The translations under genes and the position numbers were made by a program. From assembly GCF_030254645.1 (NCBI RefSeq), contig NZ_CP116346.1, forward strand, positions 434,001 to 498,000: a stretch of 64,000 bases of DNA, read 5' to 3'. Of this stretch, positions 17,440 through 33,168 are shown one piece after another; position 1 is the first letter of the stretch; each line of letters opens with the position of its first letter. Origin of the DNA: Paucibacter sediminis. GTDB taxonomy: Bacteria > Pseudomonadota > Gammaproteobacteria > Burkholderiales > Burkholderiaceae_C. The notes beneath the pieces are model-generated. The model saw only the letters and a program-made list of their open reading frames with translations. It made no database searches and was not told the DNA's origin.

Positions 17440-17543
17440 CCGCCATGGCGCGTCGCGGCCCGGGCACAAAGCGCCCACCCCCGCGCGCCAGGCTTGAGTT
17501 AGCGCGCACTAATGCAGTACGCTGCGGGCAGGAGGTCAACGCT

Positions 17544-18101
17544 GTGGATGTTCTGCAACTTGATATCTCGGGCAGACCGCAAGCCTGGATCACGACCAAG
17601 GAAGCCGCCGTGATCTATGCCAGCGACGGTGTGGCCTGGACGCTTGGCGACCCCTGCCATGTCTTGCGCGGCGGCCTGCAGCGCCGCACCGGCATGCAAT
17701 CGCGCATCGAAGTGCACCCCATCATCGCGGTACGCGGTGCCGTGCCCTCGCGGGCCTGGCGCCAGGCGCCGGCCCTCTCCAACCCCAAGCTGTTCGCGCG
17801 CGACCGCTATGTCTGCGCCTACTGCGGCCACAGCCACCATCCCGACGACCTGACCCGCGAGCACATCATCCCCAGTTCGCGCGGCGGGCACGACACCTGG
17901 ATGAATTGCATCACCGCCTGCAAGAGCTGCAACGGCCGCAAGGGCAACCGCATGCCCGAAGAGGCCCACATGAGCCTGCTATACCTGCCCTATGTGCCGA
18001 GCCTGCACGAGGACATGATTCTGCGCGGGCGCCGCATCCTGGCCGACCAGATGGAGTTCCTGCTCGCCAGCGTGCCCAGGTCCAGCCGCCTGCATGCCTG
18101 A
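17544..18101 (+). CDS. HNH endonuclease
   Basis: Nuclease-family protein of 185 aa. The C-terminal half has the full HNH zinc-finger pattern: CAYCG (about residue 92), then the core HIIPSSRGGHDTWMNCITAC, then CNGRKGNR. The GTG at 17544 has an AGGAGG eight bases upstream and gives MDVLQLDISGRPQAWIT; the open frame extends back to 17445. It stands alone beside the nested-palindrome element, with no methylase or phage terminase nearby, so a role in restriction or mobility is not supported. Related stand-alone HNH proteins are common in Burkholderiales. Confidence 0.87.
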   Translation: MDVLQLDISGRPQAWITTKEAAVIYASDGVAWTLGDPCHVLRGGLQRRTGMQSRIEVHPIIAVRGAVPSRAWRQAPALSNPKLFARDRYVCAYCGHSHHPDDLTREHIIPSSRGGHDTWMNCITACKSCNGRKGNRMPEEAHMSLLYLPYVPSLHEDMILRGRRILADQMEFLLASVPRSSRLHA

Positions 18102-19269: not shown

Positions 19270-19550
19270 TGGTAGGCCGTGCAGGACTTGAACCTGCGAC
19301 CAAAGGATTCCGGTTTGTGCCCATTTCTGGACTCCCTGGACTATGCCTTCGCCATGAGCCTTGCAGCCTGTAGGCGGGCGCCGTCTAGTCTCTACACCTT
19401 CCCCTTTCAGGGCTTGGCTCGGCATTGCCTTGCACCCTTGCGGGCCGTCAGGTTTCACCGACTTTGACGCCATTCACTCGGGCGCTTTCGCCTCCCGGTG
19501 CACAACTTTCGCTATGAGTCCTCTGCTCTAACCAACTGAGCTAACGGCCC
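19270..19550 (-). tRNA. tRNA-Ile (CAU anticodon, Ile2-type), interrupted by a group I intron
   Basis: Two exons make a complete 77-nt tRNA. The 5' exon (19550-19514) starts GGGCCGTTAGCTCAGTTGG and ends at anticodon base U36 (CAT). The 3' exon (19309-19270) starts AATCCTTTGGTCGCAGG and ends with encoded CCA. Joining them gives the anticodon loop CTCATAA between a perfect 5-bp stem GAGGA / TCCTT (one G-U). The TTGGTCGC and TTCAAGTCC segments resemble tRNA-Ile2 (CAU, decoding AUA after lysidine modification) more than elongator tRNA-Met. The 204-nt intron lies directly after the anticodon. Confidence 0.9.
19310..19513 (-). ncRNA. group I self-splicing intron (IC3-like) in tRNA-Ile(CAU)
   Basis: 204-nt insertion after anticodon U36. 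P1 is visible: exon CAU plus intron AGC pairs with GUUGUG across a GAAA loop, giving the U-G wobble at the 5' splice site. The intron ends in G before AAUCC, as group I introns do. Core elements are present: R-type GUGUAGAGACUAGACGGC (19380-19397) and S-type AAGGCAUAGUCC (19338-19349), plus GCCGAGCCAAGC and a final ACAAACCGG. These closely resemble the Azoarcus tRNA-Ile intron as I remember it. No homing endonuclease is encoded. Confidence 0.92.
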
Positions 19551-19573
19551 ACTGATACAACATCTTCTGTTTC

Positions 19574-19611
19574 CACTCAGGGCGCCCTCTCACCAACTGA
19601 GTTGACTGCCC
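19574..19611 (-). pseudogene. possible tRNA 5'-half remnant
   Basis: Reads GGGCAGTCAACTCAGTTGGT then GAGAGGGCGCCCTGAG on the minus strand. It resembles the acceptor and D-arm half of a tRNA, including the CTCAGTTGGT D-loop shared with the intact tRNA 24 bp downstream, but no anticodon stem or T-arm follows. It may be a duplicated and decayed 5' exon, or chance similarity. Confidence 0.4.
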
Positions 19612-19666: not shown

Positions 19667-20686
19667 CTACTTCTGCGACAGCGCGTTGCTGACCATGCGC
19701 GAGGTGATGTCGACGATCTGGATCATGCGGTCGTAGGCCATGCGGGTGGGGCCGATCACGCCCAGGGTGCCCACCACCTGGCCATCCACCTCGTAGGGCG
19801 CGGAGACGATGGAGAGCTCCTCGAAGGGCACGACCTGGCTCTCGCCGCCGATATAGATGCGCACGCCCTCGGCGCGGCTGGAGACGTCGAGCAGGCGCAT
19901 CAGCTGGGTCTTCTGCTCGAACATCTCGAACAGGCGCCGCAGGCTGCCCATGTCGTTGTTGAAGTCCTGCACGGTGAGCAGATTGCGCTCGCCGGAGATC
20001 ACCACGCGCTCTTCCTCATGCTCCAGCGCCTCGGTGCCGACCTGCACGGCGGTATTCATCAGCAGGCCGATCTCGCCCTTCAGCGCATCCACTTCGCTCC
20101 TCAGGCGCTCGCGCACCGCCTCCAGGGTGAGGCCGGCGTAATGGGCGTTGAGGCGGTTGCTGGCCTCGGCCAGCTCGGCCTGGCTGAGGTCCTGCGCGGT
20201 GAAGATCACGCGGTTCTGCACATCGCCGTCGGGCGAGACCATGATCACCAGCACGCGCCGCTCGCCCAGGCGCAGGAACTCGATGTGGTGGAACACGCTG
20301 GGCTTGCGCGGCGCGGTGACCACGCCGACAAAGCTCGACAGGCTGGACAGCAGATGCGCGGCGCTGGCGATCACGCGCTGCGGCTGGTCGGGCTGCAACT
20401 GCGTCTCGATGGGCCGCGCGTCCGCGCCCAGCAGGGCCGGCTGCGCCGTCAGCATGGTGTCGACGAAGAGGCGATAGCCGCGCGCGGTGGGAATGCGGCC
20501 GGCACTGGTGTGCGGGCTGGCGATCAGGCCCAGTTCCTCCAGATCAGCCATCACATTGCGTATGGTCGCGGGCGAGAGCTCCAGGCCCGAGGCCTTGGAC
20601 AGCGTGCGCGAACCCACGGGCTGACCGTCCGCGATATAGCGTTCGACCAGGGTTTTCAGCAGTGATTTGGAGCGCTCGTCGAGCAT
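19667..20686 (-). CDS. hrcA: heat-inducible transcription repressor HrcA
   Basis: Repressor of class I heat-shock genes that binds CIRCE inverted repeats, 339 aa. An N-terminal winged helix-turn-helix covers about residues 1-70 ([33 protein letters not shown]), followed by [20 protein letters not shown], a family hallmark. I chose the ATG at 20686 ([13 protein letters not shown]), which fits relatives; an ATG 9 bases earlier and a longer frame to 20776 also exist. It is divergent from nadK. No CIRCE element was seen in the window, so its targets lie elsewhere. Confidence 0.92.
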
Positions 20687-20755
20687 GGTTTTCATTGTAC
20701 GGACAGGCCCGCCATGTTCCGCAAGTCGTCGCAACCCTGTGGTGTAATTCTGCGC

Positions 20756-21631
20756 ATGGCCAAGCGATTCCGTCATGTGGCGTTAGTGGGCAAGCACCAG
20801 GCCAGGGGCATACGCCCTGTGCTTGAGGAGATTGCCGAGTTCGTGGCCGGCCTCGGCCTGGAAGTCTCGCTGGAGCGCGAGACCGCCCTGAACACCGGCA
20901 TCACCGCCTTCGATGCCCTCTCCAACGACGAATTAGGCCGCGAGTGCGATCTGGCCATCGTCGTCGGTGGCGACGGCACCATGCTGGGCTTTGCCCGCGA
21001 GATGGCAAGACATGGCACCCCGCTGGTGGGCATCAACCAGGGCCGGCTCGGGTTCATCACCGACATCTCGATCGAGCGCTTTCGCGAGGCGCTCGAGCCC
21101 ATCCTGGCCGGCACCTACGAAAAAGAGCAGCGCGCCATGCTGGAGGGCGCGGTCTGGCGCGATGAGCGCATCATCTTCGAGGGCCTGGCCCTCAACGACG
21201 TGGTGGTGAGCCGCGGCGCCACCGCCTCGATGGTGGAACTGCGCGTGGACGTGGGCGACGAGTTCGTGGCCAATCTGCGCGCCGACGGCGTGATCGTCGC
21301 CTCGCCCACCGGCTCCACCGCCTATTCGCTGTCGGCCGGCGGGCCCATCCTGCACCCCAGCATCGGCGGCTGGGTGCTGGTGCCGATCGCCTCGCACACG
21401 CTCTCCAACCGCCCCATCGTGCTGCCCGACCTGGGCGAGATCCGGCTGGAGATCGTGGCCGGCCGCGATGCCAGCGTGAATTTCGACATGCAGAGCCTGG
21501 CCAGCCTGTTGCACGGCGACCGCATCACCGTGCGGCGCTCCAAGCACAAGGTCTGCTTCCTGCATCCGACCGGCTGGAGTTATTACGCCACGCTGCGCCG
21601 CAAGCTGCGCTGGTACGAAGGGGTGAGTTGA
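20756..21631 (+). CDS. nadK: NAD kinase
   Basis: Phosphorylates NAD to NADP, 291 aa, cytoplasmic. The catalytic motif [13 protein letters not shown] (about residues 65-77) contains the GGDGT signature, and [16 protein letters not shown] (near 183) is the second conserved block. The ATG at 20756 ([15 protein letters not shown]) fits the family; the open frame extends to 20714. It is directly adjacent to recN (stop followed at once by the recN ATG), so the two are probably co-transcribed. Confidence 0.95.
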
Positions 21632-32888: not shown

Positions 32889-32921
32889 GTTGGCTCAAAT
32901 GCCGCGCTGCACAAGCCCGGC

Positions 32922-32927
32922 TAGAAT
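32922..32927 (+). promoter_or_regulatory. -10 element for the cobalamin riboswitch transcript
   Basis: TAGAAT ends 7 bp before the first riboswitch base, so transcription would start at the edge of P1. No convincing -35 is seen 17 bp upstream. Confidence 0.45.
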
Positions 32928-32934
32928 GCCGCTC

Positions 32935-33168
32935 GTTGGTGCTCGCCCAGCCATTCATGTCTGGGCAGTTAAACGGGAATCAGAAGGGCGCGTCTCGCCG
33001 AGGCAAACCCAACCTGAGCTGTCCCCGCAACGGTAAGTGGATGGAGCCCTCAGTGCTCCAAGGCCCGTACAGCAATCCACTGGCGCAATCGCGCTGGGAA
33101 GGATGCGGCGCTTGAATCCACCAGCCCGGATACCGGCCAACAGGTGATGCATCGCGACGCGATGCGTC
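32935..33168 (+). ncRNA. cobalamin riboswitch with downstream hairpin
   Basis: AdoCbl-type leader RNA ahead of btuB. The B12 box is AGCCCGGATACCGGCC (near 33123-33138), with GGGAATCAG and CTGTCCCCGCAACGGTAA typical of the core. P1 pairs GTTGG (32935-32939) with CCAAC (33137-33141). A 10-bp hairpin (33146-33155 / 33159-33168) follows and is probably the expression platform. There is no T-run, so control of translation or Rho-dependent termination fits better than intrinsic termination. B12 should repress the downstream uptake and synthesis genes. Confidence 0.94.

Follow-up and report, generated by a model that had tools for sequence, protein, structure and literature searches.

In the lysidine pathway, TilS converts C34 of tRNA-Ile2(CAU) into lysidine, and the tRNA then reads AUA. 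The pre-tRNA-Ile(CAU) of Azoarcus sp. BH72 contains a group IC3 intron, reportedly described by Reinhold-Hurek and Shub in 1992 and by Tanner and Cech in 1996. In the part of the tRNAscan-SE 2.0 paper that deals with tRNA-Ile2, group I introns in this tRNA of Acidovorax and Burkholderia are stated to cause missing gene predictions (PMC8450103). tRNA genes also serve as integration targets, and a classical genomic island, as catalogued by Islander, carries a tRNA-gene fragment that rebuilds its target (PMC4383910). According to the relevant passage of a review, Randau and Soll (2008) proposed that archaeal tRNA introns block virus integration (PMC4090602).

Here, we analysed a 64,000-nt stretch of the Paucibacter sediminis genome (the window), which contains a tRNA-Ile(CAU) gene split by an intron (Table 1). 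Direct reading of the sequence, together with ARAGORN run with introns permitted, placed a 204-nt insertion right after the anticodon, as the original prediction had claimed. The joined exons (37 + 40 nt) fold into a 77-nt cloverleaf with an encoded CCA. The spliced tRNA is identical at 77/77 positions to the uninterrupted tRNA-Ile of a related species (G013, locus L036), in line with the clean tRNA that had been anticipated. In the acceptor stem, the first pair alone is a wobble (G1-U72, window positions 19550 and 19274); as G1-U72 is common in the mature tRNA-Ile of many intronless relatives, it represents a lineage trait. With default settings, ARAGORN called no tRNA gene at 19270-19550. 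When introns were permitted, it called the gene and its 204-nt intron but labelled it tRNA-Met, so the suspicion that tRNA finders miss or mis-call this gene holds for ARAGORN. A promoter and terminator scan found neither.

Table 1. Features of the tRNA-Ile(CAU) locus and two further features of the window.
Feature	Position	Strand	Basis or remark
tRNA-Ile(CAU), whole gene	19550..19270	minus	limits read from sequence
5' exon of tRNA-Ile(CAU), 37 nt, CAT/CAU anticodon at its end	19514..19550	minus	direct reading; intron-permitting ARAGORN
Group I intron, IC3/Azoarcus type, 204 nt, between tRNA positions 36 and 37, end ..CAAACCGG	19310..19513	minus	RF00028, covariation, Azoarcus homology
3' exon of tRNA-Ile(CAU), 40 nt, AATCC..ACCA, position 37 to encoded CCA	19270..19309	minus	direct reading
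P1 internal guide sequence GUG	19501..19503	minus	pairs with CAU 19514-19516, U-G at 5' splice site; invariant in 37/37
P7, 19386-19392 with 19338-19343 (guanosine-binding site), enclosing P3 3' strand 19377-19382 and P8	19338..19392	minus	covariation
Upstream flank GGAAACAGAAGATGTTGTATCAGT, 24 nt	19551..19574	minus	alignment: common to intron-bearing loci of G034 and G404, absent from intronless loci
Decayed 5' part of what is probably another tRNA-Ile gene, GGGCAGTCAACTCAGTTGGTGAGAG, 25 nt	19587..19611	minus	21/25 to tRNA start; between hrcA and the intron-bearing gene
hrcA	19667..20776	minus	ORF list; many relatives encode the HrcA C-terminus ahead of tRNA-Ile, whether or not the intron is present
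HNH endonuclease gene	17445..18101	plus	PF14279, 4.8e-16
Cobalamin riboswitch	32920..33155	plus	80.7 bits

The host genome is complete and consists of a single contig of 5.32 Mb. Its CAT tRNAs are two initiators, one elongator Met, and the intron-bearing tRNA-Ile gene. A search of the genome with the mature tRNA found no second tRNA-Ile(CAU), which settles the question, raised with the original prediction, of an intact second copy. The gene was identified as tRNA-Ile2(CAU) by its match to the tRNA-Ile orthologues of relatives, by the other CAT tRNAs being initiator or elongator Met, and by the presence of tilS (151 bits). Because the gene is the sole tRNA-Ile(CAU) in a genome that has tilS, and AUA reading proceeds through lysidine, it is very likely essential for reading AUA.

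The covariance search matched the insertion to the group I intron model RF00028 (cmscan; E 8.9e-9 local, 2.0e-8 genome-wide). The predicted family match was thus obtained, but the score of 39.9 bits lies below the gathering threshold of 50 bits, which is a curation cut-off and not a defining property. Clear homologous introns of relatives, at 40.3 and 47.2 bits, likewise score below 50, indicating that this threshold misses members of the Azoarcus-type subgroup. Thermodynamic folding of the 204-nt stretch alone was not better than that of shuffled sequences (z -0.98) and gave no signal. The structural evidence is comparative. For an alignment of 37 same-site introns with their exon edges, we drew on the family of the window and on further Burkholderiales; a structure of 44 pairs, modelled on the established Azoarcus layout (P1-P9, the P3/P7 pseudoknot, and P9.0), was then scored. 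Standard pairs occupied 97.2% of the 1628 cells (44 pairs in 37 homologues), a level reached by 0/500 shuffles, and sliding the partners by 1-3 columns lowered pairing to 28-40%. Compensatory changes on both sides occurred at 18/44 pairs and were distributed over P2, P3, P5, P6, P7, P8, P9, and P9.0. P3 and P7 are 100% paired across the 37 sequences, with U-A replaced by C-G in P3 in 12 and A-U replaced by U-A in P7 in 9 of them. P1 comprises C-G, A-U, and then a U-G wobble at the splice site, and is lengthened by a GAAA-capped hairpin. The splice-site U-G and the terminal G of the intron had both been predicted; the former is invariant in the 37 homologues and the latter is present in every row of the alignment. 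Comparative sequence analysis thus confirms the assignment of the insertion to group I introns of the IC3 Azoarcus type, with a core supported by covariation. The intron is too short to fit an endonuclease gene, and the claim that it lacks one was correct.

The sequence that we take to be the Azoarcus intron matches genome G777 exactly at 198 of 202 nt, inside tRNA-Ile(CAU) and at the same site. Compared over its full length with the G777 sequence, the window intron shows ~71.5% identity. Together with the shared site after U36 and the covariation-supported core, this upholds the proposed closeness to the Azoarcus class. The nearest introns are those of G034 (93.6%), G404 (90%), G170, G129, beta proteobacterium AAP51, and Leptothrix discophora. 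The window intron and these six form a 7-row clade with support of 100/99.

To survey the family of the host, 399 genomes were searched with an exact pattern spanning the 3' junction. Matches were obtained in 38, two of which were ordinary tRNAs by eye, and 36 genomes were kept. Among them, the short Azoarcus type is found in 15, a longer type (~250-280 nt) inserted at the same position in 14, and an intron at 33/34 in 7. G404 and G030 belong to one genus and have identical HrcA rows; G404 carries the intron, whereas the tRNA of G030 is intact and intronless. The intron between positions 33 and 34 is a distinct group I intron (~230-260 nt), three bases off the Azoarcus site. It was observed at L052, L086, L088, L090, L104, L112, L118, L129, L148, L169, and L211; the hosts are several Burkholderiales, Halotalea, and a Roseimaritima MAG. 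A cut tRNA half was also present upstream at L052 and L211. In gammaproteobacteria, the group I introns found at the Azoarcus site of tRNA-Ile(CAU) are long, with 228-334 nt (L100, L111, L121, L126, L145, and ~28 more). Patescibacteria and Phycisphaerae MAGs (L130, L133, L136, L139, L152, and L153) have insertions resembling introns at CAT or neighbouring anticodons.

In many relatives, the intron-bearing tRNA-Ile is part of an integrated island and sits close to one of its ends. In several of them, what follows hrcA is only the 5' half of an intronless tRNA-Ile, severed within the anticodon loop; a complete intron-bearing tRNA-Ile comes 144-446 nt further on. The cut halves end ..GACTCATAATC, or ..GACTCATAA in Polynucleobacter, and vary by host. 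Beyond the cut, each element type has its own conserved sequence, TCAAGAGGCC..GCGATTA for the long class and GAAAGAAGCCC for Polynucleobacter. The replacement tRNA is often unlike the host half in sequence. Variable host halves, conserved sequence after the cut, and a differing replacement tRNA constitute the signature of site-specific integration. A whole-genome tRNA search located the 3' halves, starting at position 33, in G392 (19 kb off), G133 (21 kb), G272 (26 kb), G783 (21 kb), and G431 (33 kb), each of which thus holds both host halves and the intron-bearing tRNA. The rejoined halves of G133 give exactly the intact tRNA-Ile gene of L087. The halves share a crossover core of 7-9 bp, CTCATAA to CTCATAATC, covering positions 32 to 38 or 40, and the intron site 36/37 lies inside this core.

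At the right end of the islands in G392 and G133, we found a 449-aa tyrosine integrase (PF00589, E 2.6e-21 and 3e-23), and a near-identical protein occupies the same place in G272. A second, integrase-like type of ~450 aa lies 3' of the tRNA at L162 (112 nt away), L135, L101, L211, and in G431. Pfam barely detects it and NCBIfam does not; it was assigned to integrases from SLRHT..HYSHL motifs read by eye. No integrase was recognised in the G783 island. By eye, this Polynucleobacter island, between the halves at G783:C1 1634500-1657200, holds a catabolic cluster with dioxygenase-, CoA-transferase-, and thiolase-like ORFs. Integrase relatives were found beside only 7/85 intron-bearing loci with enough flank, suggesting that the integrases are usually farther away, belong to other families, or have been lost. 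In the long-type islands (G392:C2, G272:C7, and G133:C1), the first ORF after the replacement tRNA encodes ~370-410 aa and is a possible element regulator; the G392 version has a weak match to PF20109 (Trans_reg_dom). Tandem cases were also seen (L101 upstream of 2724; L158 at 3158 and 4877; L120 at 369 and 3218), with two cut tRNA-Ile halves in succession, or with two intron-bearing 3' junctions separated by 1.7-2.8 kb, suggesting repeated integration at one site.

All loci were submitted to one scoring, in which a strong upstream 5' half is one that scores at least 18 of 41. Strong halves were present at 16/36 short Azoarcus-type loci, 7/14 long-type loci, and 3/27 loci with the 33/34 intron, and at 0/33 gammaproteobacterial and 0/21 intronless loci; these tallies are counts and not independent events, as many loci are related. 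No strong relic was found at 20/36 loci of the short class, Azoarcus included. The value of 0/33 for the gammaproteobacterial intron loci indicates that an element account does not apply to every intron at this position. A comparable arrangement was observed at a different tRNA gene. In G005, a tRNA-Leu(CAA) gene (L039, 1486-1807) has a 237-nt group I intron at its anticodon and is preceded, at 191 nt, by a host tRNA-Leu 5' half cut after the anticodon. A downstream ORF resembles the conjugation protein TrbI by eye, and the locus is probably a conjugative element carrying an intron-bearing replacement tRNA-Leu. We found no description of the island arrangement in the open-access literature, the scope of our search. 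As far as that literature shows, the arrangement is new; its novelty is not proven.

We then turn to the window's own locus. The 25-nt sequence between hrcA and the intron-bearing gene, judged by its similarity to the start of the tRNA, is probably a remnant of the resident tRNA-Ile gene. Its local score is 17, compared with 12 for the best of 500 shuffles, and a score of at least 16 was reached at 0/21 intronless and 0/33 gammaproteobacterial control loci, the maximum over all 54 being 12. Within the window's intron clade, L142 and L162 keep the 5' half and G170 keeps the 3' half, 2.5 kb downstream. In G404, a 16-nt decayed tRNA start (13/16) sits exactly at the position of the intact gene of the congeneric G030 and is followed by the intron-bearing gene. 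In the host genome of the window, neither a tRNA-Ile 3' half nor an L162-type integrase was found; within 19 kb downstream of the gene, the best candidate 3' half scored 13 against 10 for shuffled sequence, which is unconvincing. The window also contains an HNH endonuclease gene, 1.2 kb from the tRNA, and a cobalamin riboswitch. In relatives, genes of this type are borne by mobile elements and serve as replacements; the window gene was therefore more likely imported than generated by a resident gene gaining an intron in place, and the locus is most likely a replacement gene left by an element that is otherwise gone.

We propose the following course of events. An element would integrate at the anticodon loop of a resident intronless tRNA-Ile(CAU), using the core described above, and would split the resident gene into two dead halves. 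It would bring a complete intron-bearing tRNA-Ile ~150-450 nt inside one end. Since the single-copy tRNA lost on integration is essential, the element has to supply a functional copy that is not itself a target. The intron interrupts the crossover core, and the replacement gene, its core being split, should therefore be hidden from the integrase and not act as its target. Two guanosine-initiated transesterifications would release the P1-P9 ribozyme from the pre-tRNA and ligate the exons, and we infer that this splicing occurs in vivo. The spliced product would be the only tRNA-Ile2(CAU) of the cell, with C34 converted to lysidine by TilS and AUA read. In the window, the element would since have vanished or eroded, so that only the replacement gene and the decayed 5' fragment of the old gene remain. 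To the whole of this reading, comprising intron fold and splicing, arrival on an integrative element, protection, and later loss of the element, we assign a probability of roughly 0.77.

Several observations could be explained otherwise. A plain Azoarcus-type intron might have entered, or been inherited in, the resident tRNA-Ile with no mobile-element link in this lineage, the relic being due to chance or an unrelated duplication. The order of hrcA and tRNA-Ile is unchanged with and without the intron, the genome has no L162-type integrase and no 3' half, and the lack of relics at gammaproteobacterial same-site introns (0/33) indicates that an intron in this position can be maintained in the absence of an element. 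These points fit such a history, but we consider it unlikely. The relic outscores all 54 controls and the 500 shuffles, a short flank of the gene is common to intron-bearing and not intronless loci, and close kin retain element halves. In addition, the HrcA tree places the window beside the intronless G036 (97/94), whereas its intron groups with those of G129 and G034, a mismatch for which differential loss could also be sufficient. That the tRNA gene is decayed and non-functional is highly improbable. Several wobbles in P4 and P8, and a G:G at the P4 end, the window's sole non-standard counted pair, could be taken as signs of decay, but 6 other sequences also have no standard pair there (7/37 homologues, window included). 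Moreover, the exons are identical to orthologues, and a complete genome having tilS has no other tRNA-Ile(CAU).

From its position, the intron may shield the replacement gene from the integrase. It could also be pictured as a mere hitchhiker without a protective role, with a full replacement tRNA being needed since the att core is short. Group I introns are, in the established view, often neutral passengers, and a replacement gene by itself accounts for viability after integration. We regard a hitchhiking intron as a serious possibility, at somewhat below even odds. Set against it are the intron site 36/37 inside the crossover core and the tRNA-Leu(CAA) gene, which has the same arrangement with the intron at its own anticodon. 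Islands with an intronless full replacement gene were not seen either, a weak point because intron-bearing genes were what the search started from. The protective reading is, in our estimate, slightly favoured: the ribozyme would keep the replacement gene working yet hidden from the integrase, the introns would have been disseminated within an integration module, and the window would be the fossil of such an event. If true, this would account for the patchiness of Azoarcus-type introns, their anticodon site, and their having no need of a homing endonuclease, and the island context would give the first concrete role that we have found for bacterial tRNA group I introns. The idea that introns shield tRNA genes from integration, put forward by Randau and Soll, would become directly testable in bacteria. 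There are also consequences for annotation: when intron-bearing genes are missed or mislabelled, AUA-decoding tRNAs seem absent, and islands of this kind may elude finders that expect a regenerated tRNA.

Considered alone, the intron is a further member of a known, textbook ribozyme family, and Burkholderiales tRNA-Ile2 introns have already been published. Like the Azoarcus sp. BH72 intron, it occupies the same tRNA at the same site after the anticodon (204 versus 205 nt), has the same P3-P9 core and ACAAACCGG end, and contains no ORF. It differs in the P1 loop, P2, P5a, P6a, and the P8 loops; moreover, Azoarcus belongs to another family, and the Azoarcus locus itself has no tRNA relic. The Acidovorax and Burkholderia introns share with it the tRNA, the order, and the annotation trouble, whereas the passage of the tRNAscan-SE 2.0 paper on such introns gives no element context (PMC8450103). 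The Paracidovorax cattleyae intron is different, as it sits between positions 33 and 34. As in the anticodon-loop subclass of Islander, the islands of relatives combine a tyrosine integrase, an anticodon-loop crossover, and a tRNA fragment at the island end (PMC4383910). Classical islands, however, restore their target by an attP fragment, whereas in the present islands both host halves are dead and a complete, intron-interrupted tRNA is carried. In the case considered by Randau and Soll, as the review presents it, an intron in the anticodon loop likewise destroys an attB (PMC4090602). In their case, protein-spliced introns protect the host, whereas the present intron is a self-splicing ribozyme and belongs to a gene that the element itself brings.
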